Shown: in pieces, positions 2,060 to 64,000 of the stretch
Layout of the letters: every line of letters begins with the position of its first letter
Numbering within the stretch: position 1 is the stretch's first letter
Assembly (NCBI RefSeq): GCF_009905375.1
Contig: NW_027418159.1
Span: 1 to 64,000, forward strand
Length of the DNA: 64,000 nt
From: Apium graveolens
Lineage: Eukaryota; Streptophyta; Magnoliopsida; Apiales; Apiaceae
Direction of reading: 5' to 3'
Made by a program: the position numbers and the translations under genes
The notes under the pieces: model-generated
Database searches by the model: none
What the model was told of the DNA's origin: nothing
Seen by the model: the letters and a program-made list of their open reading frames with translations, nothing else

Positions 2060-2060
2060 A

Positions 2061-3651: not shown

Positions 3652-3696
<45 letters not shown>

Positions 3697-21390: not shown

Positions 21391-23213
21391 AACGTACAAA
21401 GTAAATCTGTAAATGATAAACACATAACAACACTTAGCAAATATTCGATTTCATTTCAAAACACTATATGAATCGGGTCTTTATTCATAAGTGCCTCCCA
21501 CTAGTTTTCTTAATTTATTCAACCCCCTACGTGAAAAATTAAGCATTCATAATGCTAGTGAGAATAGGGATCCTACATTCCATTACACAACCTCGGCTGT
21601 AGCACGAACCGCCATGCAATGTTCAATAGGCAGACAACTCTTGTCAATTACATCTCATGTTATTCCCTAATCAAACTTTAGCCTCTTGAATAATTGAGTC
21701 TCGGCTGTAGCACGACAAACTCAATATTCTAAGTCAAGTCTAACCCAACATTCCGTACAGTTGAATTAGTCCTCAAAGGCCCACGGCTGTAGCACGTACC
21801 GACCTTTAGATTCTTATTCAATGTACACATCTCTATGTAATAGATAAGTATTTCTTATTTCAAAATCAAAGCCCTCGGCTGTAGCACGAACCGACAATGA
21901 TTCAAAAATAAGAACTACTTTTCTATCATGTTGGAAGGCTATGACCGACACAAGCCCGTTGTATCATTGGCCAATTACTACTTGATATTATTTAATTTTA
22001 GAGGGATTATATTACGTTACAATCATAATCATATTATAAAGAGATTCTTCCTTTTAAATTAAATATTTCAAATCAATAATCAATAGTCAGATGATTCCCA
22101 GATCGGGTGGAGCATTGTCAAGAGGCGTCACTTAATAACCCTTTCTTACAGATAGAAATCTGTTGTTGACAGAATCATCCTTTCTCTCATATTGAAAATT
22201 CATATTCAATTACGTATTTCACAAACACAAGAATCTCATGATTGTATTCATAATATTATTCTTAAGGTTATGAAACAGTTTCACTATACTAGGTTGTCTA
22301 ACAAACGCCTTATGTTCATTTAAGTTCACCTAAATCTATCATCGCATGATAAACTAAGCATATATCACATATATCAACATGAATAAACATCAAGGTAGGC
22401 ATGTTACATCATCTAGCACATTAGTCTAAGCATTATACATCTCTATGTATCACATGAAGCATTTAAAAGCAATTAAAAACAGTCAAAAACAGCTTTAAAA
22501 CACTTCATGGAAATATAAACAGTTCAAAACTTTTATATAAACTACAATTGATCACACCATTAGATCCGTCTCGAAAAAACGAATCTAACGGTATATTGCA
22601 CGCCCAAAACGGAGTTACGAAACTCCCAGAAAATCAATTTTAAAATCAACAGACGGGCTGTAACGCATTACAGGAATGCGTTACACGCCCTGCAACGCAT
22701 TCCGGTGATGCGTTACACACCTTTTAAGCCATTTAAGGGTGTAACGCATTCGGTGAATGCGTCACAGGTCTGTAACGCATTCCCAAAATGCGTTACACCC
22801 CTATTTTTTTTTTCTTGCAGCCGCCGTTGCTTTGGTTGCCGTGCCTGACAACTCTGACCTGTCATCTCCTGTGCTTCCGTGCAGAACAGAGAGCATACGG
22901 CACAGACATATGCAGATGCAATATATATATACTTACAAATTATATATATATATGATTATTTAATTACGAATTTTAATTACAAGAACTTCAAAAATTCATA
23001 ATAAAAAATCTATACATCCTAAAATTATAAAAAAAATACCCAGACGATCTACAACACTTGTAGAACCCAGATCAACATTCAAAATTATTCTGAGAAACGA
23101 TTTCTCATCAGACAAAATTAATCTATGATATAACTTGTAAAAATCATAATTAATTCATACAAACACATAAAATTCTGAAATTTTTACCACAGATCTATAT
23201 GCATACAACCTAT
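21391..23213 (-). other. Copia B untranslated leader
   Basis: Noncoding, between PBS and gag. It contains reiterated GGCTGTAGCACG(A/T)ACCG tracts (21597-21890, four to five times), each followed by an AT-rich spacer, and GTAACGCATT(C/A)...ATGCGTTACA inverted motifs (22660-22800). Both types recur in D's leader (39890-40000 and 40740-41060). They are probably structured packaging or translation-control RNA; that function is inference. Confidence 0.6.
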
Positions 23214-23225
23214 GCTCTGATACCA
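23214..23225 (-). other. Primer-binding site of copia B (tRNA-Met)
   Basis: TGGTATCAGAGC on the minus strand, one base after the 5' LTR end. It is complementary to the 3' end of plant initiator tRNA-Met. Confidence 0.92.
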
Positions 23226-23226
23226 T

Positions 23227-24890
23227 TGTTGGATTTTTAAACGCAGCGGGGTGTGGCAAAACACTTTTACACATACAAAATCCAAATAAAAGAATATAAA
23301 TCGTGAATAAAAATTTGAGGGATCGAATCTAACCTTTTAAAATAATTCGGAGACAACGATCAGAGATCCTTAGCAGTTGCTCCTCAAGTGTGAAGCACTC
23401 CACCGGTATCCACCAAGAAAACGATGTTAAGGAGGAGGAAGAAGGTTGAGAGAATTGGGTTTTTCAAACTTTTTGGGTTTTTGGGTTAGAATAAAATTAG
23501 GGTCTATAATAGTGTATTTATAGGCAAAATTTTCAGCTGAAATTTTCCCATAAATATTATTATTATTATCCCATTTATTATTCTCATTAATAATTAAAAC
23601 ACCTTTTAATCATTAATCCTTTTTCTAAACACTTTAGAAATAATTCTCTCTCTTGATTTAATTTCCAAAAATTAAATCCTTTAATTAATAATATTAAGAA
23701 CTTTTCTTAATTAATTTATAATCAATTAAATCTCATTTAATCAATTATTAAATTTGTCAATTAATTATTTATTTCACAAATAAATAATTATTTAGCCATT
23801 ATTAATTAATTCCTCCACCATTAAATCATTCTCTTTTTATGGTGTGACCCTGTAGGTTCAATATTAAGCCGGTAGTAGAAATAAATAATAATAAAACTAT
23901 TTTATCATTATTTATTAGAATTCTCTAATTTATTAAATATGATTAATTAATTAATCATATTTATTCTACATCGTGAGTGATGCTTCTCAACATATCGCGA
24001 CTATCCGGATAATATGAATTCACTGCTTAGAATATCAAGAACCTGTCAGTGAATAGTTACCGTACAATAAACTCCTTCTACCCTACAATGTCCTGATTAA
24101 ATGCAAGGCATGGATCTCGTGTCAAGCCTATCTAATTCAATCACTTTGCTTACCATTTACTATGCGTAGTTTTATGCAAATTAGAAACTCCTTTCTAATT
24201 TCATTTACTCTGGCCAGAGATTCCTGAACTAGCATAAGTGGATCAGCCTTGAACATTCGCTTCCTTCACTGGAAGGGGTAGATCCTTTATTGATCATACA
24301 CTATCTTCGTGTACAAATTCCTATACCCAGAAGAGCCCTAATAATTATCCCTGGAGACTAAGAATTAAACCAAAGCATAGTTTAGTGTACACAAGATGAC
24401 TATGATGACCTCAAGTCTAAGGATACTTGTACAACTATCACTAAGTGAACAACTGCTGACACGTGAGTGAACTCCATCGGTTGTTCAGTTGTGCGAGTCA
24501 TGTTCAGTGAACTTATTCTATAATAAGCACCTACATACTAGCTATAGTGTCACCACACAAATGTCTATGAGAACAGACATCCTTCATAATGAAGCAAGCA
24601 TAGTATGTACCGATCTCTGCGGATTATTAATTACCGGTTAGTAATCCTACGACCAGGAACTATTTAAGTTTAGAGTTATCATCTTTTTAGGTCTCACTAT
24701 TATGATCTCATCATAATCCATAAAAAGCTTTACTCTAAACTATGGTATATCTTATTTAAACACTTAAATAGATAAAGCCCGTAATAAAAACAAAACAAGT
24801 CTTTATTAATATCAATGAAATCAAAACAGATTACATAAAAGTTATTCCTAAATCCTAATACACGATTGGACTTAGGACATATTCCTTTCA
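23227..24890 (-). repeat. 5' LTR of copia B (1,664 bp)
   Basis: Bounded by TG...CA (TGAAAGGAATATG start at 24890; AAAAATCCAACA end at 23227) and followed by the PBS. It contains a CACGTG box (24460-24465) between the inverted arms TGAACAAC (24446-24453) and GTTGTTCA (24480-24487), and CTATAAATACAC near 23520, a likely TATA box for the element transcript. Confidence 0.93.
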
Positions 24891-25590
24891 GCCAGCACGT
24901 CACAACACCTGCTATGTCAGCAGACACGTCAGTATTGTTGGTCCCACGTGTGGGCCCACCTATCACGTGGGTTGCCATGTCAGCAGTGTATTGCATTGCA
25001 TCTGGCCCCACTTCTTCGATGTAAGATGCCACATAAGCAGCGTAGGTACCACAGGTGTAACCTATATTCCCACGACAGCTGCCATGTCAGCAGTGTGGGT
25101 CCCACGCGTGGGACCCTCTTCCACATGGCAACATATTACTTTGGCATATGGCTAATGCAACACCACAAATTCTGCAACACCATTATTTATAGGCAATGTC
25201 AGCTGAAATGTAATGCAACTATATTTTCTCATGGTTGTAGATAAGCCAAAATCTTATATTTATTGCAACGCTTTTCTTGCAAAACTCAAAAAAAAACATC
25301 GCATACGAGCATTTATGGCATAGTGCCGAAAACATAAACAGGTGATAGATTGCATTCAGAAAACTACCTCACAAACTATGAGGAGGCCCCTCCATTAGCT
25401 CCTTTTGTGAGCTATCTTTGGTAACGATATCATGCCAGTACAATAATTCCATTCTGGTAGCCCTAGGTACATGTTGGACCCTAGATCATATTGTCAACCC
25501 CGATTTACTCCTTCATGAGCTACCATGAAAATCCTGCAAGTTATAAAACACCTTCAAATACTATATTTCATTATCGACTGGATCCTAGCT
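24891..25590. other. G-box/palindrome-rich segment, noncoding
   Basis: Five variants of GCCATGTCAGCAG lie between 24910 and 25210, with two CACGTG boxes (24945-24950, 24964-24969) and a perfect 20-bp palindrome GGGTCCCACGCGTGGGACCC at 25097-25116. From about 25250 on the sequence is plain AT-rich noncoding DNA. The first 300 bp may be a MITE or a promoter-like fragment. I could not find matching terminal repeats. Confidence 0.6.
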
Positions 25591-25805
25591 AGTCATAGGG
25601 CTATACATACCCGACCTGAGTCGAGCTGATTTTTGACATAAACGAGTCGAGTTTATATTTTTTCTGATGAATCGAACTGTGTCGAGCTTCTTTCTTGAAT
25701 AAAAAAGCGTGTTCGAACTCGAATTCATTTACTAACGGGCCGAACTTGAGGTTGTTCGCAACAAATACGAGTCGAGCCGAGTTCGAGCCCAACCGAGCAA
25801 CTCTT
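25590..25805. mobile_element. hAT-like MITE fragment (candidate)
   Basis: Starts around TAGGGCTATACATACCCGACC, a hAT-like terminus, and continues with GAGTCGAGC, CGAACTCGAATTC and CGAGCCGAGTTCGAGCCC motifs like the MITE at 14353. No inverted right end or 8-bp duplication was found. Repeated at about 51524-51740. Confidence 0.4.
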
Positions 25806-26259
25806 TGACAAATAAAATATCAAAATAAAAATCAACCTTGTCGGTCCAACCTAACCAATTCGAGCCCAACCAAATTATCTAAACATTTAATTTAAGCCCA
25901 ACCCTATTATCTAAAAGACTAAACTTATATTATCAATCCCTCTATCATCTGTTCTTTGTTCTGAGTTCTTGATCCTATATTACCATTTTTACTTATCTTG
26001 AAAACATCAACAAATCTCGTCAAAAATATAACAACCCCCATGACCTCACCACTTGCTTTTCCCACCATTCTTAATCTTAGTATCAAGCTCTTGTTTGTTG
26101 AGACGGGTGTTGACTACGATCAATACTGGAAAATTACCTCCTCCTTATTTTAATTAAGTGCGGCTTCTGATTCAGGATTTTATCAATAAAGTGCAGCTTT
26201 AGATTTAGGGTTTTATTGAGAAGTGAAGAATTTGTAAACAGTTGTTTAAAGATATTTGT
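25806..26259. other. Noncoding spacer before Tat antisense ORF copy 2
   Basis: AT-rich, with no recognisable gene or element end. The C-terminal end of the antisense ORF is replaced here by unrelated sequence (similarity to copy 1 stops at ~26260). Confidence 0.5.
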
Positions 26260-27923
26260 TCCCTTAGAACCAGAACCCCTTCGGCTCGAACTAGATAGAT
26301 ATTGCTGGAGGGAGGTCTCTAGTACGGACCCGGAGGCCTGTCCGAGTGGATCCAACACGGGAACTTTCCAAGGGCAAGTGAAAAGGCTTGGATCAACCAC
26401 ATCTGTATACATGTCATAAACATCCTTGATGCCACTTTGCCATTCCATATCCAGGTTCACATGACGCATCTGATCATCATGATCATCCATCATCTAAAGA
26501 AACTCATTGGATCCATGATACAATTCACAAGCTTTCTCCACTCTATCTTCCTCCTTTTCATCTCCTTGGCATGCTTCTTCTCAAGGAGAGCGACTTTGTC
26601 CTCTGCTTGATGTGCCTTAGACTCCCACTTATCTGAAGAGATCTTCATCTTTTTCATGGAGGTTTGCAGTGCAGCGTAGTCACTCCCCATCTTGATGCTT
26701 TATGTAGAAGATGCAATAAAGTAGGGATTGGCCTTGCAAAGAAAAAAAAAAGAGAAGTCGTAAGAAGGTTAACTCCAAATGGAATAGAGGTAAAATACTA
26801 AGATCAATCAAGACTCAAGAGGGCCGAGTCCCCAACACAGAAAGTCCCGGCCGGCCTCGAGTAGATTCTCACCCGATGAGACGTGAAGAAGGTCTAGGGG
26901 AGTGATGCAATTCTTGGATCATTCAAGAACAAGGGATGAACTTTTGAACACCAAGTCATTGGTGGATATGCCCCATAAAGGTTTGAAGGGGATCTTCACA
27001 TTTTCATCTGAATCTTTGACCCTTTTCTTTCCAGAGCCGGAGGCCTCAAGGAGTGTCGGGACTTTGGGAATGCAATTAACCTGCTTGGCAGCTTCCCTGG
27101 CCATCATTCCCGTAATCATGTCACTCTTATCAGTACGTGCATCCAGGGCCTCATCAACTTAAACAAAACAAAGAAAAAATGGATATAAGAACAAACTTGA
27201 CCAAGTTTGAGATAGAATAAAAATAAATATCCTCTCTAAAAAGGTTGTTAATGCCAGCCTCGACGAGCTTCGTCTCCGTAACAAACTCCCAATAAGGGGT
27301 CCTTCCATTATCATCAATAAGGAGATCAAGATCGTAGAGCTCAGCATTTGTGAGGTGAAGGATGTAGTGAGCAATGTCTACTGGACAGCTGAAATCACGT
27401 ATGAATTAAACTCCCCAGTCACCCTACTTCCCCTCCAAGACCATAAACTTTTTGTTCCACTAGTTATTAAAGTCATTGAGAGAATACGTGTTCACAATGT
27501 GAGGAACACGGGGCATGTGTTGTAGAAGAACCCAGTCAGGCCTGGAGGAAGGAGATGCCTTCAACATGAAAATACTTTAGAACATTGAAACACTCAGTGG
27601 AATACTAAGGTCGTTGGCACTCAGATTGCAAGTCCTCTCATTGGACTTGGCTTTGCAAACTTCTACACAATCAGGCCCGAGGTAACTTGACTGAATCTCA
27701 TCGACATCCTCTTCATCGAGCATGCTCTTATGCTTGAATGCATCAAATTGAACGATGCTCGGATACTCATCATCCTACGCATCAAGCATGCTTCTTAAAC
27801 TATTGGAACAACGGTTATGGGAATAGGGAAAATGAAAACTATACCTTTCAGAGATCGGATTGTAGTTCTCTTTTGCATGGCTTTCTTGGCCGAGATGGAG
27901 GGCTTGCTAGGGCCTTGAGACAT
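26260..27923 (-). pseudogene. Tat antisense additional ORF, copy 2 (broken)
   Basis: Same gene as at 9995-11929, starting at the ATG at 27923 (MSQGPSKPS). In minus-strand order it keeps the N-terminus, a LYDLDLLIDDNGRTPYW stretch (~27310), MITGMMAREAAKQVN (27119), a coiled-coil-like Lys/Glu segment (26690-26490) and MMDDHDDQMRHVN (26493). It lacks the ~150 bp that encode the FPLHPFI..LLAML part of the PF04195-like domain; a ~30 bp unrelated filler stands there (~27617-27645). Copy 3 has the same filler, so the loss is older than the block duplication. The acidic C-terminal tail is also gone. Confidence 0.75.
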
Positions 27924-28020
27924 CTTAAAAAACTTAAGAAGTTGAGAGCTTCTAAAACTTGAGAAAATTTGAGAGGAGTTGAAATGAAAGTGTGAATGAG
28001 AATGAGCACTTCTCATCTTC

Positions 28021-28027
28021 TTTTATA
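28021..28027 (-). promoter_or_regulatory. TATA box of antisense ORF, copy 2
   Basis: TATAAAA on the minus strand, ~100 bp before the ATG at 27923, in the same context as copy 1. SIRE-like element E inserted about 165 bp upstream of it. Confidence 0.6.
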
Positions 28028-28191
28028 GAAGAATAGGTAAATGCTACAACAGGTCATAACTCTGCTTGGTTCGTGCCAGCAGGTATCTCTCGAAAAAACA
28101 CCTAAAAATGGTAGGAAAAATGATCAAGAGATTAGAAGAAAGGACATAATAAACAAACAAAGTGACGCAGAACGTCGCTTATTGTATCAGT

Positions 28192-31100
28192 TGTTATTTC
28201 CCAAGGAACTAATAATGAGATTTACAGAAGGGGGGTCGAATGTAAATCTCAAAACTTTTTCAAGTTTTGAGCAGCTTGAAAAGCTAAGTGTATGATGAAC
28301 AAATGTGTGTGAATTGCTTTGTGCAGTTGCAGACAGGTGTATATTCAAAAACACATATGTAAAGAACACAAAGGCTTTAAAAACTTTTCTGATGGATTGT
28401 TGTTCCACCAGAGATGTATATTTCATAAAATATGTGATACAAAGAATTTTACACAGCTGCTTCCTAGTACAAACTAGATGATTTTCTCTCTTAGTTTTTC
28501 TAAACAGCTCTGGAAAATTCACACCTAATTACTAGCTGCAACCTAGTTTATATTCCACCAAGTTTACAAGTGAAGACAAAAATAAATACAATTATAAAAT
28601 TGGTCTTCACATGTTTTTTCTTCTTTTCTCTATCCAATGCAACCAAAGATAAATTGTGAATCTTTGAATACTTCATTGTTTGCACCAGAATGGAAATGCT
28701 GGTTTTCTTTCATTCCTCCAAAAGGCTACCACATTCCAATTGTCTCTATCAACCCATGTGCCTCTTTCAGCTTATGAATTATCACTATCAACTGCTATAG
28801 AACTGAGCATCCATTGAAGCTTTCATCCGTTGATGGCTTTATCCGTTAATGCCCTTATCCATTGATGCACCTATCCGTTGATGTTTTGGTGACATCAGTT
28901 GATGCTTTAGCTGTGGCGCCCTCCAAACCCGGGTCAGAAGTTTGGGGTCCACACACACATACCTTATTTATAACATGCTTATAATAATAATAAAGATAAT
29001 AATAATATGCAGTGACCCTACTTACCAACTACTATAGACCGCAACAGGTTAAAGTATGCACACAAGCCAAATACATCTACTTATATTACAAACCGTTCAA
29101 AACCCAACTATCCAAACTCAGAACTGAGTATTAAACGTTATTACAAACTTTTACAAACTTAAAATTATCCCTGAACCCCTAGCTCAGCTTGATCAACCTG
29201 AACCCCTAGCTCTCGCGCTGGACTGGGGATCCTCGTTACTAACTGGTTCCTTTTTAACTGGAACGAACATAAACAACATCGCACAAATGAGCTAACTAGC
29301 TCAGCAAGTCACAATGACAAAACTGAGAATAATGATCATCAGGTAAATATGGTTATGATATCAAGTGAACAATGGATTATGATTTAGAACTGGATATTAT
29401 ATTTTCATTTTAAAAACCAAGGTTAGGCTGCTGATCAGTCATGTACTAACCCCGAGCAAAGCACACAACACTGCTCTAACTACTGGGTCCAAGGCACATA
29501 TTGGCCTAACTTGACCATTATATGGTCTGACCACGAATCTGGTCCACAATTTTATAAAAACAATCCAATTCTACCATAATAACAGAATAAGCAGTAATAA
29601 ACAATAAACAGGATCATTAACAACATTGGACGTTCAATAATAAAAATGGTTTCAATCTGTATAAAGATCAATATGGCATTTCCAAAGCTTGGCTGTTAGG
29701 TAATGAAAGAATTGGATAACAAAGGAATCAACATTTCAGGGTTCCAAGGATTTGGTCTTTCAAAGCATAAGATACAATGGTTTGAATGTGTAAGCAATCT
29801 GGTTCAGTGTTTAATATTTAGTTTGTATGTATTTGTGGAGTAGTATCGTATATTTAAGGTTCGTATATGGGTATACAACAATCAATGGTCTAGAAAGAAT
29901 CAGGTTACGGCTCAAGATCAATAACTGGAATCAAGGTTTAGGGTTCAGTGCTTCAAAGCACTTGCAATATAGAACAGGAATATCAATCACTGCAATATCT
30001 CGAGAAGGTTCTGAACACTTTCCTGGTACTAGCTTACTACACCGCACTTGCTCTCAATCACCACTGTCTTACTCCTTGACTATCTGTTTCCCTTTCCTAC
30101 GCCTTGCCTCTTCTGCTCACATATCATAAGCATCTATCAATATTTAACTCATACGATTCTATTGACACATACTTCTATCTACCCTTCGATTCACCCAAAT
30201 CCGGTTAACAGATTGAAAGTTATGCAATAAACAAGTAAACATCGAATATACAGACCGACAGATAACCAACAAGTCACATATAACACATAACACGTCACAT
30301 AATCAATGATATATCATTTATAAAGAAGTCTCAGGTCATAAATAGGCTTTCGGATATTTAAAACAGATCGTTGAATCAATTTCGAAGTAGTAAATAGGGT
30401 TCGGTTGGCCAATTCTGGCTTCAAAACAATTTCATAATAATTATCGAGCCTTGATAAAAATTTAAAATAATATTTTAAAGCTCGAAACTATTTTTCGGAA
30501 TTTTTAAATCATTTTTATATAATTAAATCTAATTAAATAATTAATTAAAATTTATTAATAATTAATTAAATAAATTAATCAATTAATTTTCGAATTAATT
30601 GACCAATTAATCAATTAATTATTAACTAAAACTAATTAACTAATTAATTTAGATTTATTTTTGAATTAAAAATAAATTTTGGAATTAAATTAATAATTTT
30701 TTTTGGAATTTTCAGAAATTAAAATCGAATTTTTATAATTAAAATAAATAGGAAATATGATTTTTAAATATTTTCAAAACAGGAATCCAAAATTTGCAAG
30801 TTCTGGAAACCTCAGGGACCTAACTGTTTCTTCCCCAAAAGATAAGGTACCAAACTGCAATTTTACAACCCCCGTCGCCGGAAAATACAGGGTTGGCCGG
30901 AGAACACGATTCTGGAACCCTCACCTCACCACAAGCTCCAGATCACATCTACAGACAACCAGGAACTTATTCATGCAATCAAATCATTCAAATAATCCCA
31001 GACTTGGCCGGCAATTGGCCAAGAACATCGTCGGTTTCCGGCGAACTTCGGAAATTTTCAAAACACAACTCCCTTCGATTCAGACATCCTCTGGTAACGA

Positions 31101-32734
31101 GATATATACCAATCGATTGCAAATTTCATAAGGGACATAATCCACTATAAATCAACAGCTAATAACCCCTAAATCAAAAAGCCCCAAATTTCAATTGAAA
31201 ACATTCATACGGGTTATAAACCCTAATTTTAAAATTCGAGAATTAAACCCACTTTTGAGCATGTTATTGAACTCCAAATCAGACGTATGACATATGAAAA
31301 TCATCAGGAAACAAGCTCTACAACATGCAAGCATCAAATCATACAAACAATCATCCGAACAAAAATTCATATTTTTAATAAAATTAATTCGAAAATAAAT
31401 AATTTTTCAGAAAATAAACCTTGATTTCTGCAGTGATTTGGAACATATAATCTGATAGAACACCTCAAGACCTTTGGATTGAGTACTCGAGCTTTTCAAA
31501 CGGACTCCGGTAACACCTCCGATTGTTGGTTTGATTCTTAGAAAGGTTTATGAATATATGAATTTTCTCTGGAAATTTATATAATTACTGACTACAAATG
31601 ATTTTTGATACGAAATAAAATACGGTAAAGGCTATTTATAATTACGGAAAATTAGTACAATTTTCCGTAATTATCGGTATCGGTACAATTATCGGTACAA
31701 TTACGGTAAACTGATCCAAACGGTATCGGTTTTCGGGACAATTATCCAGATCAGTACAATTTGTACTGCGGTCTTGGTCTCAGCGCCTGGTTACACGTAT
31801 AACGAGGTGATAATTGGGATAGTTTAATAAAAAGCTCCCGTTTATCGAAAATACGAGTTTTATTGATTTACCGAAACGAATATTGTATCGAAAATGTTGC
31901 GCCGGGACCCGCGCAAGACAAACCGTACGCCGGATCGAAAAGTCGAAACATGGAATATGCTCGGAATATTACAATTGGGTTAGGAAGGAGTTCTCGGAAG
32001 AGTTTCAGGTTCCAAAAACGTAACACGGATGACGTCGGTTGGTTCCCGTTTTTATAAAATAGATTCTAAATACTCGGAAAAAGATTTTATAAATTTCATA
32101 TGATCCTTATAAATCCATAAATCATCATAAAAATAATTAGGAAGATATGACAATTATCTATATTTTATTTTGGACATATAAAAATTAAAATACTCAATTA
32201 ATAATATTTTTAAACATCCAAACACATTTAATACTTAACAATTAATTCACAGAACAGATACTGAACACATATATTAATTATTTATTAGCAAAAATAATTA
32301 CACGATATATCCCGGATATTAATTAGCAGTTGAAGCTTTATCTGTTGAAGCACTCATCCGCTGATGGATGTTATCGGTTGAAGCTTTAGAGACATCCGTT
32401 GAAGCTTTGTTTCTCATCCGTTAAAGGCCTTTAATTTATCAGTTGATACTACTTCACTTATACAAAATTAAAAGGCATGAAATATTTACAATTAGCCCTC
32501 CTATTTGCATATCCACTAGTAATCAACATGACTTATAATTTCCTACAACATTTAAGAATTGTAGCTTAAATACAAAGACTGGAATGTGCTACAATACTAA
32601 ACTTATTTTTAAGTAAAGCTACTCCATCAACAGATAGCCAAAGTGGTCTTATCCGTTGAGGCTACAAACACTAGTTTTCTACTTAAGTGTTTTGTTTAAC
32701 TTATCATCAAACTAATACACATGTATTCCTAACA
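28192..32734 (-). repeat. 3' LTR of element E, copy 1 (split by F)
   Basis: Terminal TG...CA: starts TGTTAGGAATACATG at 32734 and ends CTTGGGAAATAACA at 28192. Without the F insertion and one target duplication it is about 1,127 bp. It holds more than ten ATCCGTTGA(T/A)G-like motifs (28826-28905, 32335-32435, 32650). Confidence 0.9.
28912..32322 (-). repeat. Gypsy solo LTR F, copy 1 (3.4 kb, TSD TTAGC)
   Basis: A 3,411 bp noncoding block starting TGTGGCGCC and ending CCCGGATATTAA, inserted in the LTR of E. TTAGC flanks it on both sides (28907-28911, 32323-32327). Read on the minus strand it begins like the LTR at 2929 (TGTAATATCCGGG, here with one base lost) and ends GGCGCCACA. No PBS, PPT or gag/pol is inside, so it is a solo LTR left by LTR-LTR recombination. 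ORFs of 85-124 codons at 30757-31150 are LTR sequence. Confidence 0.9.
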
Positions 32735-32750
32735 ATCTCCCCCTATTTAT
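32735..32750 (-). other. Polypurine tract of element E, copy 1
   Basis: ATAAATAGGGGGAGAT on the minus strand, directly before the LTR start TGTTAGGAATAC. Confidence 0.85.
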
Positions 32751-39287: not shown

Positions 39288-39288
39288 T

Positions 39289-47242: not shown

Positions 47243-47261
47243 GTCTCCCCTCCTTAAAAGG
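47243..47261 (-). other. Polypurine tract of Tekay-like element
   Basis: CCTTTTAAGGAGGGGAGAC on the minus strand, directly upstream of TGTAATAACCCC. It proves that sequence to the right is a 3' interior end. Confidence 0.9.
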
Positions 47262-52194: not shown

Positions 52195-53854
52195 TCCCTT
52201 AGAACCAGAACCCCTTCGGCTCGAACTAGATAGATATTGCTGGAGGGAGGTCTCTAGTACGGACCCGGAGGCCTGTCCGGGTGGATCCAACACGGGAACT
52301 TTCCAAGGGCAAGTGAAAAGGCTTGGATCAACCACATCTGTATACATGTCATAAACATCCTTGATGCCACTTTGCCATTCCATATCCAGGTTCACATGAC
52401 GCATCTGATCATCATGATCATCCATCATCTAAAGAAACTCATTGGATCCATGATACAATTCACAAGCTTTCTCCACTCTATCTTCCTCCTTTTCATCTCC
52501 TTGGCATGCTTCTTCTCAAGGAGAGCGGCTTTGTCCTCTGCTTGATGTGCCTTAGACTCCCACTTATCTGAAGAGATCTTCATCTTTTTCATGGAGGTTT
52601 GCAGTGCAGCGTAGTCACTCCCCATCTTGATGCTTTATGTAGAAGATGCAATAAAGTAGGGATTGGCCTTGCAAAGAAAAAAAAAGAGAAGTCGTAAGAA
52701 GGTTAACTCCAAAGGGAATAGAGGTAAAATACTAAGATCAAGCAAGACTCAAGAGGGCCGAGTCCCCAACACAGAAAGTCCCGGCCGGCCTCGAGTAGAT
52801 TCTCACCCGATGAGACGTGAAGAAGGTCTAGGGGAGTGATGCAATTCTTGGATCATTCAAGAACAAGGGATGAACTTTTGAACACCAAGTCATTGGTGGA
52901 TATGCCCCATAAAGGTTTGAAGGGGATCTTCACATTTTCATCTGAATCTTTGACCCTTTTCTTTCCAGAGCCGGAGGCCTCAAGGAGTGTCGGGACTTTG
53001 GGAATGCAATTAACCTGCTTGGCAGCTTCCCTGGCCATCATTCCCGTAATCATGTCACTCTTATCAGTACGTGCATCCAGGGCCTCATCAACTTAAACAA
53101 AACAAAGAAAAAATGGATATAAGAACAACTTGACCAAGTTTGAGATAGAATAAAAAAAATATCCTCTCTAAAAAGGTTGTTAATGCCAGCCTCGACGAGC
53201 TTCGTCTCCGTAACAAACTCCCAATAAGGGGTCCTTCCATTATCATCAATAAGGAGATCAAGATCGTAGAGCTCAGCATTTGTGAGGTGAAGGATGTAGT
53301 GAGCAATGTCTACTGGACAGCTGAAATCACGTATGAATTAAACTCCCCAGTCACCCTACTTCCCCTTCAAGACCATAAACTTTTTGTTCCACTAGTTATT
53401 AAAGTCATTGAGAGAATACGTGTTCACAATGTGAGGAACACGGGGCATGTGTTGTAGAAGAACCCAGTCAGGCCTGGAGGAAGGAGATGCCTTCAACATG
53501 AAAATACTTCAGAACATTAAAACACTCAGTGGAATACTAAGGTCATTGGCACTCAGATTGCAAGTCCTCTCATTGGACTTGGCTTTGCAAACTTCTACAC
53601 AATCAGGCCCGAGGTAACTTGACTGAATCTCATCGACATCCTCTTCATCGAGCATGTCTTATGCTTGAATGCATCAAATTGAACGATGCTCGGATACTCA
53701 TCATCCTACGCATCAAGCATGCTTCTTAAACTATTGGAACAACGGTTATGGGAATAGGGAAAATGAAAACTATACCTTTCAGAGATCGGATTGTAGTTCT
53801 CTTTTGCATGGCTTTCTTGGCCGAGATGGAGGGCTTGCTAGGGCCTTGAGACAT
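52195..53854 (-). pseudogene. Tat antisense additional ORF, copy 3 (broken)
   Basis: Begins at the ATG at 53854. It has the same layout, filler and C-terminal truncation as copy 2 and differs from it by scattered substitutions (for example DKAALLEKK for DKVALLEKK in the coiled-coil-like segment, 52625-52425). Confidence 0.75.
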
Positions 53855-53951
53855 CTTAAAAAACTTAAGAAGTTGAGAGCTTCTAAAACTTGAGAAAATT
53901 TGAGAGGAGTTGAAATGAAAGTGTGAATGAAAATGAGCACTTTTCATCTTC

Positions 53952-53958
53952 TTTTATA
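53952..53958 (-). promoter_or_regulatory. TATA box of antisense ORF, copy 3
   Basis: TATAAAA on the minus strand ~100 bp upstream of the ATG at 53854, with a CT-rich leader as in the other copies. Confidence 0.6.
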
Positions 53959-54122
53959 GAAGAATAGGTAAATGCTACAACAGGTCATAACTCTGCTTGG
54001 TTCGTGCCAGCAGGTATCTCTCGAAAAAAGACCTAAAAATGGTAGGAAAAATGATCAAGAGATTAGAAGAAAGGACATAATAAACAAACAAAGTGACGCA
54101 GAACGTCGCTTATTCTATCAGT

Positions 54123-57100
54123 TGTTATTTCCCAAGGAACTAACAATGAGATTTACAGAAGGGGGGTCGAATGTAAATCTCAAAACTTTTTCAAGTTTTG
54201 AGCAGTTTGAAAAGCTAAGTGTATGATGAACAAATGTGTGTGAATTGCTTTGTGCAGTTGCAGACAGGTGTATATTCAAAAACACATATGTAAAGAACAC
54301 AAAGGCTTTAAAAACTTTTCTGATGGATTGTTGTTCCACCAGAGATGTATATTTCATAAAATATGTGATACAAAGAATTTTACACAGCTGCTTCCTAGTA
54401 CAAACTAGATGATTTTCTTTCTTAGTTTTCTAAACAGCTCTGGAAAATTCACAGCTAATTACTAGCTGCAACCTAGTTTATATTCCACCAAGTTTACAAG
54501 TGAAGACAAAAATAAATACAATTATAAAATTGGTCTTCACATGTTTTTTCTTCTTTTCTCTATCCAATGCAACCAAAGATAAATTGTGAATCTTTGAATA
54601 CTTCATTGTTTGCACCAGAATGGAAATGCTGGTTTTCTTTCATTCCTCCAAAAGGCTACCACATTCCAATTGTCTCTATCAACCCATGTGCCTCTTTCAG
54701 CTTATGAATTGTCACTATCAACTGCTATAAAACTGAGCATCCATTGAAGCTTTCATCCGTTGATGGCTTTATCCGTTAATGCCCTTATCCGTTGATGCAC
54801 CTATCCGTTAATGTTTTGGTGACATCAGTTGATGCTTTAGCTGTGGCGCCCTCCAAACCCGGGTCAGAAGTTTGGGGTCCACACACACATACCTTATTTA
54901 TAACATACTTATAATAATAATAAAGATAATAATAATATGCAGTGACCCTACTTACCAACTACTATAGACCGCAACAGGTTAAAGTATGCACACAAGCCAA
55001 ATACATCTACTTATATTACAAACCGTTCAAAACCCAACTATCCAAACTCAGAACTGAGTATTAAATGTTATTACAAACTTTTACAAACTTAAATTATCCC
55101 AAAAGAAGCCTACTAGCTCAGCTTGATCAACCTGAACCCCTAGCTCTCGCGCTGGACTGGGGATCCTCGTTACTAACTGGTTCCTTTTTAACTGGAACGA
55201 ACATAAACAACATCGCACAAATGAGCTAACTAGCTCAGCAAGTCACAATGACAAAACTGAGAATAATGATCATCAGGTAAATATGGTTATGATATCAAGT
55301 GAACAATGGATTATGATTTAGAACTGGATATTATATTTTCATTTTAAAAACCAAGGTTAGGCTGCTGATCAGTCATGTACTAACCCCGAGCAAAGCACAC
55401 AACACTGCTCTAACTACTGGGTCCAAGGCACATATTGGCCTAACTTGACCATTATATGGTCTGACCACGAATCTGGTCCACAATTTTATAAAAACAATCC
55501 AATTCTACCATAATAACAGAATAAGCAGTAATAAACAATAAACAGGATCATTAACAACATTGGACGTTCAATAATGAAAATGGTTTCAATCTGTATAAAG
55601 ATCAATATGGCATTTCCAAAGCTTGGCTGTTAGGTAATGAAAGAATTGGATAACAAAGGAATCAACATTTCAGGGTTCCAAGGATTTGGTCTTTCAAAGC
55701 ATAAGATACAATGGTTTGAATGTGTAAGCAATCTGGTTCAGTGTTTAATATTTAGTTTGTATGTATTTGTGGAGTAGTATCGTATATTTAAGGTTCGTAT
55801 ATGGGTATACAACAATCAATGGTCTAGAAAGAATCAGGTTACGGCTCAAGATCAATAACTGGAATCAAGGTTTAGGGTTCAGTGCTTCAAAGCACTTGCA
55901 ATATAGAACAGGAATATCAATCACTGCAATATCTCGAGAAGGTTCTGAACACTTTCCTGGTACTAGCTTACTACACCGCACTTGCTCTCAATCACCATTG
56001 TCTTACTCCTTGACTATCTGTTTCCCTTTCCTATGCCTTGCCTCTTCTGCTCACATATCATAAGCATCTATCAATATTTAACTCATACGATTCTATTTGA
56101 CACATACTTCTATCTACCCTTCGATTCACCAAAATCCGGTTAACAGATTGAAAGTTATGCAATAAACAAGTAAACATCGAATATACAGACCGACAGATAA
56201 CCAACAAGTCACATATAACACATAACACGTCACATAATCAATGATATATCATTTATAAAGAAGTCTCAGGTCATAAATAGGCTTTCGGATATTTAAAATG
56301 ATTTTTAAAACATTTTTCGGAGTTAAAACAGATCGTTGAATCAATTTCGAAGTAGTAAATAGGGTTCGGTTGGCCAATTCTGGCTTCAAAACAATTTCAT
56401 AATAATTATCGAGCCTTGATAAAAATTTAAAATAATATTTTAAAGCTCGAAACTATTTTTCGGAATTTTTAAATCATTTTTATATAATTAAATCTAATTA
56501 AATAATTAATTAAAATTTATTAATATTTAATTAAATAAATAAATCAATTAATTTTCGAATTAATTGACCAATTAATCAATTAATTATTAACTAAAACTAA
56601 TTAACTAATTAATTTAGATTTATTTTTGAATTAAAAATAAATTTTGGAATTAAATTAATAATTTTTTTGGAATTTTCAGAAATTAAATACGAATTTTTAT
56701 AATTAAAATAAATAGGAAATATGATTTTTAAATATTTTCAAAACAGGAATCCAAAATTTGCAAGTTCTGGAAACCTCAGGGACCTAACTGTTTCTTCCCC
56801 AAAAGATAAGGTACCAAACTGCAATTTTACAACCCCCGTCGCCGGAAAATACAGGGTTGGCCGGAGAACACGATTCTGGAACCCTCACCTCACCACAAGC
56901 TCCAGATCACATCTACAGACAACCAGGAACTTATTCATGCAATCAAATCATTCAAATAATCCCAGACTTGGCCGGCAATTGGCCAAGAACATCGTCGGTT
57001 TCCGGCGAACTTCGGAAATTTTCAAAACACAACTCCCTTCGATTCAGACATCCTTTGGTAACGAGATATATACCAATCGATTGCAAATTTCATAAGGGAC

Positions 57101-58694
57101 ATAATCCACTATAAATCAACAGCTAATAACCCCTAAATCAAAAAGCCCCAAATTTCAATTGAAAACATTCATACGGGTTATAAACCCTAATTTTAAAATT
57201 CGAGAATTAAACCCACTTTTGAGCATGTTATTGAACTCCAAATCAGACGTATGACATATGAAAATCATCAGGAAACAAGCTCTACAACATGCAAGCATCA
57301 AATCATACAAACAATCATCCGAACAAAAATTCATATTTTTAATAAAATTAATTCGAAAATAAATAATTTTTCAGAAAATAAACCTTGATTTCTGCAGTGA
57401 TTTGGAACATATAATCTGATAGAACACCTCAAGACCTTTGGATTGAGTACTCGAGCTTTTCAAACGGACTCCGGTAACACCTCCGATTGTTGGTTTGATT
57501 CTTAGAAAGGTTTATGAATATATGAATTTTCTCTGGAAATTTATATAATTACTGACTACAAATGATTTTTGATACGAAATAAAATACGGTAAAGGCTATT
57601 TATAATTACGGAAAATTAGTATCCCGTCGGATCATTCCGGATATAAAACGGTACGTTTATTTGTAAAAACTGATCCAAACGGTATCGGTTTTCGGGACAA
57701 TTATCCAGATCAGTACAATTTGTACTGCGGTCTTGGTCTCAGCGCCTGGTTACACGTATAACGAGGTGATAATTGGGATAGTTTAATAAAAAGCTCCCGT
57801 TTATCGAAAATACGAGTTTTATTGATTTACCGAAACGAATATTGTATCGAAAATGTTTCGCCGGGACCCGCGCAAGACAAACCGTACGCCGGATCGAAAA
57901 AGTCGAAACATGGAATATGCTCGGAATATTACAATTGGGTTAGGAAGGAGTTCTCGGAAGAGTTTCAGGTTCCAAAAACGTAACAACGGATGACGTCGGT
58001 TGGTTCCCGTTTTTATAAAATAGATTCTAAATACTCGGAAAAAGATTTATAAATTTCATATGATCCTTATAAATCCATAAATCATCATAAAAATAATTAG
58101 GAAGATATGACAATTATCTATATTTTATTTTGGACATATAAAAATTAAAATACTCAATTAATAATATTTTTAAACATCCAAACACATTTAATACTTAACA
58201 ATTAATTCACAGAACAGATACTGAACACATATATTAATTATTTATTAGCAAAAATAATTACACGATATATCCCGGATATTAATTAGCAGTTGAAGCTTTA
58301 TCTGTTGAAGCACTCATCCGCTGATGGATGTTATCGGTTGAAGCTTTAGAGACATCCGTTGAAGCTTTGTTTCTCATCCGTTGAAGGCCTTTAATTTATC
58401 AGTTGATACTACTTCACTTATACAAAATTAAAAGGCATGAAATATTTACAATTAGCCCTCCTATTTGCATATCCACTAGTAATCAACATGACTTATAATT
58501 TCCTACAACATTTAAGAATTGTAGCTTAAATACAAAGACTGGAATGTGCTACAATACTAAACTTATTTTTAAGTAAAGCTACTCCATCAACAGATAGCCA
58601 AAGTGGTCTTATCCGTTGAGGCTACAAACACTAGTTTTCTACTTAAGTGTTTTCTTTAACTTATCATCAAACTAATACACATGTATTCCTAACA
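54123..58694 (-). repeat. 3' LTR of element E, copy 2 (split by F)
   Basis: Same termini as copy 1. ATCCGTTGATG-type motifs lie at 54755-54835 and 58288-58405. Confidence 0.9.
54842..58282 (-). repeat. Gypsy solo LTR F, copy 2 (3.4 kb, TSD TTAGC)
   Basis: 3,441 bp, same target duplication TTAGC (54837-54841, 58283-58287). It has a ~30 bp segment (~56299-56328) absent from copy 1 and differs in two patches (~55092-55112 and ~57621-57668). Confidence 0.9.
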
Positions 58695-58710
58695 ATCTCC
58701 CCCTATTTAT
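58695..58710 (-). other. Polypurine tract of element E, copy 2
   Basis: ATAAATAGGGGGAGAT on the minus strand next to the LTR start, as in copy 1. Confidence 0.85.
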
Positions 58711-59040
58711 GTCTACTAGAATTGTAGGCATAAATTCAGGGTTAACTTGATGATAACAAAACACTTAACAAAAGTATAAATTGAAACTAAGTAGAAATAT
58801 AAAAGTGCTGCAAAAGTGTATGTACTGAGATAGAGTTGAAGATTTACAGTGTTTCCAAGGGTGCTCTTCTAGCCTGAGCAAATCATTTTCTTTTCCTTTG
58901 TTCCCTTGTTTTCTTCCCTATCCTCTTGTCATTTTCCTCTACTTGGAGTTAGAGTTGTCTGTAAAATCCAGCCTCATCTTCATCACTGATATCCAACTTA
59001 GATTGCATTCCTTGAGAGTTTCATTACTGGCAATCTTAAG
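58711..59040 (-). other. 3' untranslated spacer of element E
   Basis: Noncoding between the additional ORF and the PPT. No motif seen beyond AT-rich sequence and a Ser/Lys-rich readthrough frame. Confidence 0.5.
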
Positions 59041-60546
59041 CTAGTCTTTAAGTCTGAAAAATCTTCGGACTCCTTTATTGTCTCTGAACTCCATCAACCA
59101 ATGAGGTGATTTATGAATTGTAATTCCATGCTCTGGGATGAGTAATGTTCTAGGCAAGGAATTTGACTCCCTCCAAGTCTTCCTTATGTTGGCAATCTTG
59201 TTGAGAACCTCAGTCTTGGCACCTCTGGTAAAACCAGTGTCCATTTTTATGGCTGAGTAAACTCTAATCAAGGTAGAGTAGCCCTCATTTAGAATTCTTT
59301 GAAGAGGCCAAGTCCTTTCCACACTTCCTTTATATTTGAACACTAGCCTTTCTGGTAGCTGTCTGTAGGCACCTATTCCCCTTACTTCCTCCAGCTCATC
59401 CAGGTAGAGTTCAATATCTGTAAATTCTTTTAAGTCACAAATGTGAACATAATCATCCTTTGAGATTTGTAGCTTAGGCTTAGGCTTTTGTTTCTGAGTG
59501 AATTTCCTTGAGGTTGGGGGAGGTATGGATTTTTTTATTTGTCTTTTCTGTTCCTTTGGTGGTGGAGGAGTGGTTAAGAAGGTAGGCAATTGATTTTTTG
59601 ATTTGTCTTTTCTGTTCCTTGTGGTGAGGGATATCCGTTGAAGAAGGAAAAGAAGTAGAAATTGAAAGTGACATAATTGTTGAATCTGTGTGGATTGATT
59701 TTAAATTAAGTGACACAGATTCTTCAAGTAAGTCTGAAAGAATTGGCTGGTGATCCAACAAATCATCTAAAAGATGATGATCACCAGTACTTAAGTGGGG
59801 CTCATCCCTGAGTTGTAAAGAGGTAGAATCAGGAAGTGATGTGAAAATCATGTCCACATCCAAAGAAGGTGATGGAGAACTTGGTGTTTGATGTATATCA
59901 ATTATGAGAGAATGGGGATGTGACTCCACATTTGTTGGAGCCACATCAAACTGAATTTGGGAAGGCATAGATACAAGTGATTGTATCTGTGCAGTGTGTG
60001 TACCTAGTGATTATTCTAGGGTTTTGACCTTCTTTCTCCTTGTGAAGGTTTTTATAGGTGAGTGTGTGGCTTCAGTGTCCCTCCCCCTTTTGTTCTATGT
60101 CCCTGGTTGGGGACTATTTTCAATCGTTACACCCTTTTGGGAGGGTGCAACTAGGGATGAGTTTGAATCCTTCTCAACCACAACAGTCTTTTGAGAAATT
60201 GGGGCTTGGCTTGTTTGGGTAACACTCACCTCTCCTACCTTATTCTGGGGTTTTTCTTTATGTTCACCCCTCCCCTCACCACTAACACTCTTTTCACGCC
60301 CCTCAGGGTTTATAGTAGTTGTTACAACTATTTTCTTTTAAGAGACAACAGAGGTGGCTTTCTTTGACTTGGATTTGGAAATTTTGGGTTTGGTGGCCTT
60401 GTAGGAATCTTTTGGGGCATTGATACAGATCCCATGGCCACACCTGAAGACAAAGAAATGGTAGGGTTGGAAGTAGTAGGAGTTGAAGAAGTATTTACCT
60501 CACTTACCTGAGGTGCATCCATTATTGGTAAATATACCAATGGCAC
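59041..60546 (-). pseudogene. Element E additional ORF, C-terminal two thirds
   Basis: Three overlapping minus-strand frames continue the protein that begins at 61292: 60546-60328 (Ser/Thr/Pro-rich, APQVSEVNTSSTPTTS), 59968-59480 (Ser/Pro/His-rich) and 59589-59041 (182 codons, folded-looking: DDYVHICDLKEF, GAYRQLPERLVFKYKG, HWLMEFRDNKGVRRFF). A low-complexity linker with a C-terminal globular module is the likely design. Frame changes near 60320 and 59600 break it. The family is known only as SIRE-type additional ORFs, and no enzymatic motif is visible. Confidence 0.7.
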
Positions 60547-60575
60547 CTTATTGTTGAGGTTAATCCATAAAAGGT

Positions 60576-61292
60576 CTACAAGGACCCTCTTCTTTTGGAC
60601 CCAGCATTTGAGCTTATTACTCTATTATTGATGACCAAACCTTCAGCAACATAGTTAGCCAATAATATAAAGAATCTAGCATAATAGATGTTTTGAGCTC
60701 TATTAGCCTTGTTACCTAATTCGGTACCTAATTCTAGCATAACATAGTTGCTAAAATTATAGTACCTATCAGAAACTAGCATATAGAGCATATTAATAAG
60801 AGCTGAGGTTATAGCATCAAAGTTGTTAATTTTCCCAGAGAAAACCTTGATAAAGGCATCACTGAGAAAACTCCACTCCTTCCTAAGGCATTTTCTCTTA
60901 ATACTGCCTAAACTGGTGGAATTAAGGGAATAGCCTATGGAATCTAACATGCTAGATACATCATTATCAGTGTGTGGTGTCATGGCATTATTTTCAAGTA
61001 ATTTAAAGCAAGACTGTATATCATCAGAGTTAATACAGTAATCTTTACCTTTGAGAGAGAAGAAAATGGTCATATCAGTGGAGTTGAACTCAGCAGTTGT
61101 CCATATCTCCTCAACTACCTCATAGTATATTGTTGGGGCCTCCAGCTTTGCATAGCTTAGTTTACAGTTCTTGATGAAATCCATCATCTTGTGGTAGTCT
61201 GAGTGAGCTTCATTCTTTTCCACCAAAGCTAGGAAATTGTTCTTCTCATTGACAAACCCGGATTGGGACATCATCTTTACTACTGGTGCCAT
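60576..61292 (-). CDS. Element E additional ORF, N-terminal part (238 aa)
   Basis: Open frame from the ATG at 61292 (MAPVVKMMSQSG). Predicted mostly helical with LLENNAMTPHTDNDVSSMLD and the segment KRKCLRKEWSFLSDAFIKVFSG near residues 130-155, then LMLELGTELG-like helices. There is no signal peptide and no strong membrane segment at the N-terminus, so the old label 'env-like' is not supported by the sequence. The KRKCL..EW..L pattern resembles a helical domain common in additional ORFs of plant retrotransposons; that is a recollection, not a search result. The frame breaks at 60576 just before the Ser/Pro-rich part. Confidence 0.7.
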   Translation of the reverse strand: MAPVVKMMSQSGFVNEKNNFLALVEKNEAHSDYHKMMDFIKNCKLSYAKLEAPTIYYEVVEEIWTTAEFNSTDMTIFFSLKGKDYCINSDDIQSCFKLLENNAMTPHTDNDVSSMLDSIGYSLNSTSLGSIKRKCLRKEWSFLSDAFIKVFSGKINNFDAITSALINMLYMLVSDRYYNFSNYVMLELGTELGNKANRAQNIYYARFFILLANYVAEGLVINNRVISSNAGSKRRGSL

Positions 61293-61834
61293 TGTTGTGG
61301 GTATGAAGTTGCAGAGAAAAGTTGGAGAAGAAGAGTAAAAGCTTTTGAAAATTCAAGAAAGCGTAAAGTGAAAATAAGAAATCAAAAGGGCTTTTATACT
61401 TTCTCAAATTAAAACATATAGAAAATGATTAAACAATATTTTGGGTAAATTACAACCGTTTAAGAATTAAGGAAAAACTATAGGTATTCTAAAAACTACC
61501 CGTTAATACATATACATACAGCTGTATACATATATCAACGGATAAGAAAATAGAATCAACGGTTGTGATTCACTTGAATCCACTGATGTGACACTTCAAC
61601 GGATAAGGTAAATTGTCATCCGTTGAAGAGTAACACAGTTTTATCTATCGAAGGATAAAATTTCCAGAAATGTAATTGTCTTTCAACGGATAATGGACAT
61701 CCGTTGATAGAACAACTTTGGCTTTCAACGGATAGGGAATATCCATTGATATAATAAAGTTAACTTAAAGCCAACTTTGCTCTTGCAATAAATTCATTTC
61801 AGGCTGCATATCAAATTACAATTTGGACATGAAT
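61293..61834 (-). other. Spacer with reiterated TCAACGGAT motif, copy 2
   Basis: Between pol and the additional ORF. Motif copies in both orientations lie at about 61534, 61596, 61619, 61683, 61698 and 61724, with weaker ones between. Noncoding. Confidence 0.75.
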
Positions 61835-62215
61835 TTAAGAATAATTAAGCATACACAGCTCACTAACCAACCTTGTGAATGTTGATTCATCAAGTGGCTT
61901 GGTAAAAATGTCTGCAATTTGTTTTTCACTTGGAACAAAATGAAGTTCCACTGTACCATTTATCACATGTTCCCTTATGAAGTGGTATTTGATGTCAATG
62001 TACTTGGTTCTTGAATGCTGCACTGGGTTTTCAGTAATGGCAATGGCACTTGTGTTGTCACAGAATATTGGAATTTTGTCAACATTTAGCCCATAGTCAA
62101 ATACTTGATTCCTCATCCATAATATTTGTGCACAGCAACTACCTGCAGCAATGTACTCAGCCTCTGCTGTTGATGTAGAAACAGAATTTATGCTTCTTAC
62201 TGAACCATGATACAA
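61835..62215 (-). CDS. pol: Element E RNase H (end of pol), copy 2
   Basis: Degrades RNA in the RNA-DNA hybrid during reverse transcription. The frame holds [22 protein letters not shown] and HFIREHV, with conserved acidic residues in AEAE and CDN, and ends ...CMLNYS at the pol stop. It overlaps the RT frame and is offset by a one-base insertion near 62190 (GCATAAATTC where related elements have GCAAAATTC), so it is not made as one protein with RT unless that base is an error. Confidence 0.85.
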
Positions 62216-63350
62216 GCTTATTCACTAGAAATTGACAGGTGCTAGTTGTACTTTTCCTGTCTATTTTGCAACCTACATAATCTGCATCTGAGTAGCCAAT
62301 TAGATCAAAACCAGACTCTCTAGGGTACCAAATTCCTAGATTTGGAGTCCCTTTGAGATATCTGAAAATTCTTTTAATAGCAACTAAGTGAGATTCTCTA
62401 GGATCAGCTTGAAATCTAGCACAAAGACATGTAGCAAACATTATATTAGGTCTACTAGCAGTTAAATATAGAAGTGAACCAACCATGCCTCTATAGCTTA
62501 TAATGTCCACAGACTTTTCAGCCTTGTTTAATTCAAGCTTAGTGGCAGTGGCCATAGTAGTTTTTGCAGATGAACATTCCATTAAGTCAAACTTCTTTAA
62601 AAGATCATAAATATATTTAGTTTGACTAATGAAAATTCCACCACTAACTTGTTTAACTTGTAAACCAAGAAAATAAGTTAGCTCTCCCATCATGCTCATT
62701 TCATATTTACTTTGCATTAAATTAGCAAACTTTTTACAAAGTTTATCATCTGTAGAACCAAATATAATATCATCTACATAAATTTGAACAAGTATTGTAG
62801 AGCCATTAGAATTTCTAAAGAAAAGAGTTTTGTCAACAGTACCTCTAGTGAAGTGATTAGCTAGAAAAAATTTTGACAAAGTCTCATACCAGGCTCTAGG
62901 TGCTTGCTTTAGTCCATAGAGTGCTTTCAACAGATAATACACATGGTCTGGAAAATTTGGATCTTCAAACCCTGGAGGTTGACCCACATAGACTTCTTCC
63001 TCCAATTCTCCATTCAGAAATGCACTCTTGATATCCATTTGATAGGCTTTGAAATTGGCATGGCCTGCATAGGCTAGAAAAATTCTGATGGCTTCAAGTC
63101 TTGCAACAGGAGCAAATGTCTCATCAAAATCTATTCCCTCTTGTTGCGAGTAGCCCTTAACAACCAATCTAGCTTTATTCCTTATAACAATGCCATTTTC
63201 ATTTATCTTGTTTCTGAACACACATTTTGTGTCAATAGAACTCTTGTTATTTGGCTTGGGTACCAGCTTCCATACTTTGTTCCTCTCAAATTGGATTAAC
63301 TTCTCTTGCATTGCTAAAATCCAATCTGGATCCAATAGAGCTTCTTCCAC
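62157..63350 (-). CDS. pol: Element E reverse transcriptase, copy 2 (397-codon frame)
   Basis: Best preserved enzyme frame in the window. It converts element RNA to cDNA in cytoplasmic particles. In order: the linker [12 protein letters not shown] (~28), [28 protein letters not shown] (~60-86), [19 protein letters not shown] (~103-121), [12 protein letters not shown] (~142-153), the catalytic YVDDIIFG (~191-198), [22 protein letters not shown] and [20 protein letters not shown]. All typical copia RT blocks are present. The 63350 ATG is internal. The real polyprotein starts far upstream, and a one-base loss in a T run near 63375, shared with copy 1, separates it from the linker. Confidence 0.92.
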
Positions 63351-63354
63351 TCTC

Positions 63355-63682
63355 TTAGGTTCCTCCTGTGATAGAAACTATTGTATAGACATTCATCTTG
63401 AGTAGCCCTTCTTGTTTGCACTTTAGATGTTGCATCACCAATGATAAGTTCAAAGGGATGACTCTTGGTCCATTTCCTTTGAGGTGGTAGATTAGCTCTA
63501 GATGAGGTGGCCTCAGTATTGTCATGATGTGAGATAGAGTGTTGATTAGTTGAGATTCCCCCTGAGTTGGTCCTTTGCAGGGAACTAGGAGTTCTATCAA
63601 CTGATGATCTAATTTGATTATCCGTTGATGAACTATGATCAACGGATGCTCTATTATGTACTTCAACGGATGATGCACTTTG
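63355..63682 (-). pseudogene. pol: Integrase-RT linker fragment, copy 2
   Basis: Pro/Ser/His-rich linker with HPFEL-like content, read partly in shifted frames. It contains three TCAACGGAT/ATCCGTTGA motifs (63619-63670) inside the coding region. It ends at the start of copia D's LTR (63683). Confidence 0.75.
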
Positions 63683-64000
63683 TGAAAGAGATATGTCCTA
63701 AGTCCAATCATGTATGAGGACTTAGGAATAACTTTTATGTAATCTGTTTTGATTTCATTTATATTAATAAAAGACTTGTTTTGTTTTTTATTACGGGCTC
63801 TATCTATTTAAGTGTTTAAATAAGATATACCATAGTTTAGAGTAAAGCTTTTATGGATTATGATGAGATCATAATAGTGAGACCTAAAAGATGATAACTC
63901 TAAACTTAAATAGTTCCTGGTCATAGGATTACTAACTGGTAATTAATAATCCGCAAAGATTGGTACATACTATGCTTGCTCCCTTCAGGAGGATGTCTGT
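63683..64000 (+). repeat. 5' LTR of copia D, unit 2 (start only)
   Basis: TGAAAGAGATATGTCC start, matching 37717-38031. The insertion site in E is the same as in unit 1, with a 2-bp difference in the T run before it. The LTR continues beyond the window. Confidence 0.93.

Follow-up and report, generated by a model that had tools for sequence, protein, structure and literature searches.

In maize centromere 10, an adjacent segmental duplication of 22.7 kb is described that consists of nested and partial retrotransposons, with 5 nt of microhomology and an age of ~121,000 years; alternative end joining is the route suggested by its authors, and chimeric elements with mismatched target-site duplications are also present (PMC4806543). 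This is the nearest known counterpart of a locus in celery (Apium graveolens), in which a 26-kb block of nested, broken long terminal repeat (LTR) retrotransposons is repeated head to tail. The locus was studied in the first 64,000 nucleotides of contig NW_027418159.1 (the window, C1113:1–64000; the whole contig, C1113, is 94,903 bp), and joins were searched genome-wide in the celery assembly (3,332,948,439 bases in 4,849 contigs, with C1–C11 taken as pseudochromosomes). The two copies in the window are probably neighboring units of a multi-copy, hierarchical, macrosatellite-like tandem array.

The celery and maize cases have in common adjacent copies of nested retrotransposons, breakpoints inside elements, microhomology of a few nt and a recent date; however, the maize report describes one duplication, whereas celery has many assembled units, two unit lengths and longer periods (PMC4806543). 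The celery case works like the maize centromere 10 duplication but has become an array. Macrosatellites such as D4Z4 and DXZ4 are described with units of up to a few kb (PMC8122249). They resemble the celery locus in their long head-to-tail units and several near-identical copies, although the celery units are 15 and 26 kb long and are built of retrotransposon pieces. In Lathyrus, satellites are reported to have expanded from short tandem repeats within Ogre retrotransposons (PMC7004042); these arrays also originate in LTR-retrotransposon sequence, but the celery unit is a whole multi-element block rather than a repeat inside one element. A literature search turned up no published description of the celery array at title level.

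The 26-kb repeat and its join

Unit A occupies 22857..48812 (forward strand; 25,956 bp). Unit B begins at 48813, fills the rest of the window (48813..64000, forward strand) and runs to 73941 in C1113, for 25,129 bp in total; it is the shorter unit because ~0.9 kb is missing inside the copia element D'. Self-BLAST returned 22857–38031 against 48813–64000 as a single colinear match ended by the window edge, and global alignment over 15.2 kb found 14,979 of 15,256 columns identical, with 128 mismatches and 54 gaps. The edge of the 5' LTR of copia element D falls at equivalent bases in both units (24890/24891 and 50823/50824), as does the LTR edge of D' (37717 and 63683). A sequence-only reading of the window had claimed this repeat, with the same nested insertions at the same bases, and had forecast that the second unit would reach ~74.7 kb; the alignment and the LTR edges confirm the former, and inspection of the rest of C1113 the latter, with the end at 73941.

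The raw A/B divergence overstates the age of the duplication. Five clustered blocks of differences account for 51 of the 128 mismatches; one of these blocks is inherited and recurs in another unit, and one resembles consensus error. With the five blocks removed, 77 substitutions remain over 14,824 sites (0.52%); 54 of them are transitions, and their spread is even (variance/mean 1.1 in 500-bp bins). Assuming 1.3e-8 and 7e-9 substitutions per site per year, the two units would have split about 0.2 and 0.37 million years ago, respectively, in agreement with the earlier view of a recent event. When polarized by paralogues, the changes in 26259–28191 are divided equally (6/12 on unit A and 6/12 on unit B), and those in the D LTR all fall on unit A (4/4).

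At the join between the units (48812..48813), the interior of a gypsy element, G, passes into the leader of D. The sequence is ATC-ACC-ACAA in G, CTG-ACC-TGTC in D, and ATC-ACC-TGTC at the join, so that ACC is common to both parents; this 3-nt microhomology is readable because sequence past the window supplies the second parent. The break is sharp, with 20/20 of the first bases matching to the right of the join, and 3/20 and 47/200 to the left; BLAST found no homology between the two 3-kb left flanks, the best match being 32 bp (E = 0.026). Native G across the 48812 point is present at 6,010 places in the assembly (up to two mismatches), and the native D leader across 22857 at 40 places (20 exact, four with one mismatch and 16 with two). 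Because both parents exist unbroken elsewhere, the join is the derived state. The absence of long homology and of a transposon end, both previously claimed for this junction, is borne out by the flank comparison and by native copies in which G and the D leader run on unbroken. The further claim that gypsy interior lies at the junction follows from the genomic copies: the sequence left of the join is assigned to gypsy because its unbroken form occurs 6,010 times, but the two open reading frames (ORFs) tried there, in 780 bases, gave no gypsy match. The 20-mer left of the join had no occurrence in a viral-contig scan.

Insertion of a transposon at the join was rejected, as there is no element end or target-site duplication and the native copies continue unbroken; an LTR-mediated origin of the join was likewise rejected, as it falls in the G interior and the D leader, outside LTR homology. 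Unequal homologous recombination between LTRs, by which the whole block would have been copied, is hardly credible for the same junction, which shares 3 nt and no more homology between its two sides. Some features do fit such a route: the G LTR (43238..47242, reverse strand), which is common to two partial elements, is bordered by a primer-binding-site-like sequence and, at its opposite end, by a polypurine tract, which points to exchange between elements, and later changes in unit number may well use homology of this kind.

Recurrence of the joins and relations among units

The 26-kb join was found 10 times, always exactly, on seven contigs (C308, C1113, C2601, C2708, C4031, C4293, and C4731), including three times on C4293 and twice on C2708; the reversed-sequence control gave 0 matches in the assembly. 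A second block-specific join (42272..42273), at which D' is truncated and fused to G (D'/G join), occurs 36 times, in each case as an exact match, on 19 contigs (reversed control, 0). C308 carries five of these joins, C2708 and C4031 four apiece, and C4293 three. The counts of 36 and 10 are assembled places rather than copies per genome, because some contigs look redundant: D'/G joins lie at 1881 in both C4031 and C4656, at 11613 in both C3204 and C4533, and at 4473 and 4471 in C2277 and C3114. On this ground the contig pairs are probably redundant, and the safe statement is that five D'/G joins lie on the single contig C308.

The 17 distances between successive D'/G joins comprise five of 14.9 kb, five of 25.1–26.1 kb, and seven of 33.4–82.2 kb. 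Units stand head to tail on C1113, C4293, and C2708; C4293 reads as a full unit, a 15-kb unit, a full unit, and the start of another. The 15-kb unit is made up of the stretch that lies at 35111..48812 (forward strand) in the window plus 1.13 kb of further G interior, and in it G is fused to position 35111 via 2 nt (join TGA-TC-ATATC). Of 2,717 candidate sites, 40 were listed (10 full and 30 half matches), and 14 of the 30 half matches were fetched. All 14 have native G at the 48812 point (0–1 mismatch); three carry the 15-kb join, which also occurs once more on C4293, and in the other 11 G continues (eight exactly and three with three mismatches). At each of the five chromosomal sites among those fetched (C3, C9, C11, and two on C4), G runs on.

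Many dispersed segmental copies, only partly brought together rather than tandem, would suit an array that has no chromosomal position, and also the piece at 293.64 Mb on C3 (C3:293636000–293645900), where 7.0 kb is colinear with window positions 21083–28073 at 98.5% in a stretch that includes 100 N. Yet the head-to-tail units on three contigs and the regular distances on further contigs make dispersal a quite improbable account of the copies.

Six 26-kb units were compared (one ~110 bp short as retrieved), and are 0.13–0.89% apart. Unit A is closest to a unit on another contig, C2708 (0.27%), and most distant from the adjoining unit B (0.89%). Distances of 0.13–0.20% separate the C308 unit and the two units on C4293 from one another. 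A comparison over 3.2 kb sorted eight of the 10 join loci into four sequence classes. In the four-gamete test, 483 of 3,655 pairs among 86 informative sites fail, and such conflicting variants fit exchange between units. These relations bear on the proposal of the sequence-only reading, a tandem duplication of 22857–48812. The direct tandem arrangement stood. A single event with two copies did not, given that the 26-kb join occurs 10 times and the D'/G join 36 times, that a 15-kb unit exists, and that unit A is nearest to a unit of another contig. One duplication at one locus, with the other matches explained as redundant contigs, draws on the redundant-looking contig pairs; we nevertheless regard it as unlikely, as redundancy does not account for several joins on one contig (three 26-kb joins on C4293, two on C2708, and five D'/G joins on C308), for the split of eight join loci into four classes, or for a unit A that is not closest to unit B.

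The same evidence bears on the idea that the assembler set haplotypes end to end. Adjacent near-identical copies are what false heterotype duplication also yields, such duplications are reported to be common in older assemblies (PMC9516828), and a cleaned divergence of 0.52% is within the allelic range. A diploid, however, has two haplotypes, yet the join loci form four classes and the six units compared are all distinct. Published celery heterozygosity is 0.20–0.26%, with 0.20% given for the 'Ventura' assembly, built from PacBio reads with a mean of 9.1 kb (PMC8051603), and 0.26% for cv. Challenger (PMC12148408). Furthermore, false duplications are described as mostly separated by gaps (PMC9516828), whereas the celery copies are gapless and exist in more than two distinct variants; a sequence check found no N in the window, C1113, or C4293. 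A clean non-homologous join that recurs 10 times is also unlike a random misjoin. Serial haplotypes, which the sequence-only reading had allowed for, are therefore highly improbable, and are excluded because of the number of distinct copies rather than by read data.

Past 73941, C1113 continues as unbroken gypsy G (ACCACAACC...) as far as an LTR at 77888–81894, which differs by 1.75% from the LTR at 68299–72320. The left flank of the repeat (1..14410, forward strand) recurs at 80436–94887 of C1113, with 128 mismatches in 14,290 sites. This gives C1113 a longer period of ~80.4 kb, for which there is one incomplete instance.

A possible origin of the array

A hierarchical array is supported because the joins recur and stack head to tail, their spacing clusters, the parent forms exist, and the variants of the units conflict; the joins and their spacing are observed directly. 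We infer the repair route and the exchange between units from these observations. Most likely, a DNA end that had broken or stalled within gypsy G was rejoined to upstream sequence at 2–3 matching bases, by alternative end joining or template switching, leaving a tandem copy. Two such events, in a block with the D'/G join already in place, would account for the 26-kb unit (ATC-ACC-TGTC) and the 15-kb unit (TGA-TC-ATATC), and the D'/G join itself, element D with its unmatched flanks, and the arrangement of the G LTR would record earlier events of a similar kind. Once long near-identical copies stood in tandem, unequal exchange could alter the number of units and mix them. Such an array can be explained without any selected function. 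Two perfect 11-bp stems in hairpin-forming repeats (22659..22797) lie 60–200 bp left of the breakpoint at 22857; a role as a break hotspot is a post hoc idea.

Several points weigh against this account. Breakpoints without long homology and with short microhomology are what alternative end joining would leave, but the 3-nt microhomology is weak evidence (chance, 1.6% on one side and 4.7% counting positions), and the 2 nt (TC) shared at the 15-kb join are close to what chance would give. The 26-kb join is absent from the placed chromosomes C1–C11, and none of the 19 contigs with the D'/G join is a placed chromosome. The join counts are inflated by contig pairs that look redundant. The four-gamete failures could also come from the assembly of units longer than the reads, and because the reads of the published assembly (mean 9.1 kb) are shorter than a unit, the order of units and the conflicting variants could partly be assembly chimeras. 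The array as described is a feature of assembled sequence, rather than of read depth or spanning reads.

We tentatively consider it possible that the unplaced contigs derive from a single large macrosatellite on a chromosome, in which longer periods overlie a 15/26-kb unit, and which grew from one nested block during the last few hundred thousand years and is still being mixed by exchange. Head-to-tail units on one contig and units as close as 0.13–0.89% are found here, as in macrosatellites. The birth of satellites is mostly inferred from old, worn arrays. In celery, the founding joins, their unbroken parents, and generations of units coexist, so that the sequence can show where the breaks fell, in what order the events took place, and what exchange followed; if the contigs do belong to one macrosatellite, it would be a satellite caught near birth, with the founding joins and untouched parents still legible. 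Furthermore, retrotransposon debris can form a tandem unit longer than the reads behind a published assembly, and such arrays can then be stranded in unplaced contigs and overlooked.

Elements of the block and clustered differences

Copia D (17998..24890, reverse strand) contains the left end of unit A in its leader. It encodes a gag ORF (20581–21450; PF14223), which is 96–98% identical to several A. graveolens proteins, and its LTRs (17998–18597 and 24291–24890) are 98.3–98.5% identical. The flanking bases of D mismatch as a target-site duplication, so that D is chimera-like in having an LTR pair but unmatched flanks. The fragment at 26259..28191 is repeated at 10142–12196 and at 90617–92675 of C1113 (~94%); the 10142–12196 copy has a weak match to PF04195, below the curated cut-off. 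Copia C (33082..37616, reverse strand) has a reverse transcriptase (PF07727) and, downstream of its RNase H region, an additional ORF. This ORF (60576–61352 in unit B; 258 aa) has no Pfam match and has 42 relatives; among those with names, Heracleum and Apium predominate.

Copia D' (37717..42272, forward strand) belongs to the D family (LTR 95%, interior 91%) and is truncated at 42272. It is followed by the 5' interior piece of G (42273..43237, reverse strand), which has a weak RNase H match (PF17919) below the cut-off and the primer-binding-site-like bases beside the LTR, and, beyond the LTR, by the 3' interior piece (47243..48812, reverse strand), which has an integrase C-terminal SH3-like match (PF24626) at 47547–47675 and is cut by the 26-kb join. 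Rfam gave 0 matches, ARAGORN 0 genes, and a tandem-repeat scan short-period arrays only.

In unit A, many 1-bp indels interrupt copia C, and its reverse transcriptase is scattered over three frames; in unit B, copia C is largely open and the reverse transcriptase occupies mainly a single frame. Single-base indels are in excess at 34.6–38.0 kb (26 beside 17 substitutions, vs. 15 beside 60 elsewhere; five blocks excluded; Fisher p = 1.7e-5). The gypsy LTR at 1–1428 has 25 one-base deletions, vs. two one-base gaps in its relative at 45787–47243. Such single-base losses fit long-read consensus error left in repeats. At 35857–35970, in the conserved RNase H end, 11 A/B differences are all transversions; together with the 1-bp indels at 34.6–38.0 kb, these are probably consensus error in unit A. 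A low-quality zone centered on the 26-kb join was also considered: the LTR segment 45787–47243 has few gaps, and the whole LTR (43238–47242) has seven, vs. 0 and three in two other LTRs, which is not decisive.

Other clustered differences have a different character. Unit A has a perfect 16-bp inverted copy at 31638–31674, in place of ~50 bases (31638–31707), which is shared by the C2708 unit and absent from unit B; this is a template-switch mutation, of the kind that a template switch leaves. Consensus error was rejected for the clustered differences at 31658–31707, which are inherited because the unit at C2708:104247 carries the same changes. Unit B has an AT-rich replacement block at ~49730–49830 (23780–23880 in unit A), where unit A agrees with D'; the block is filler-like, as at a repaired break.

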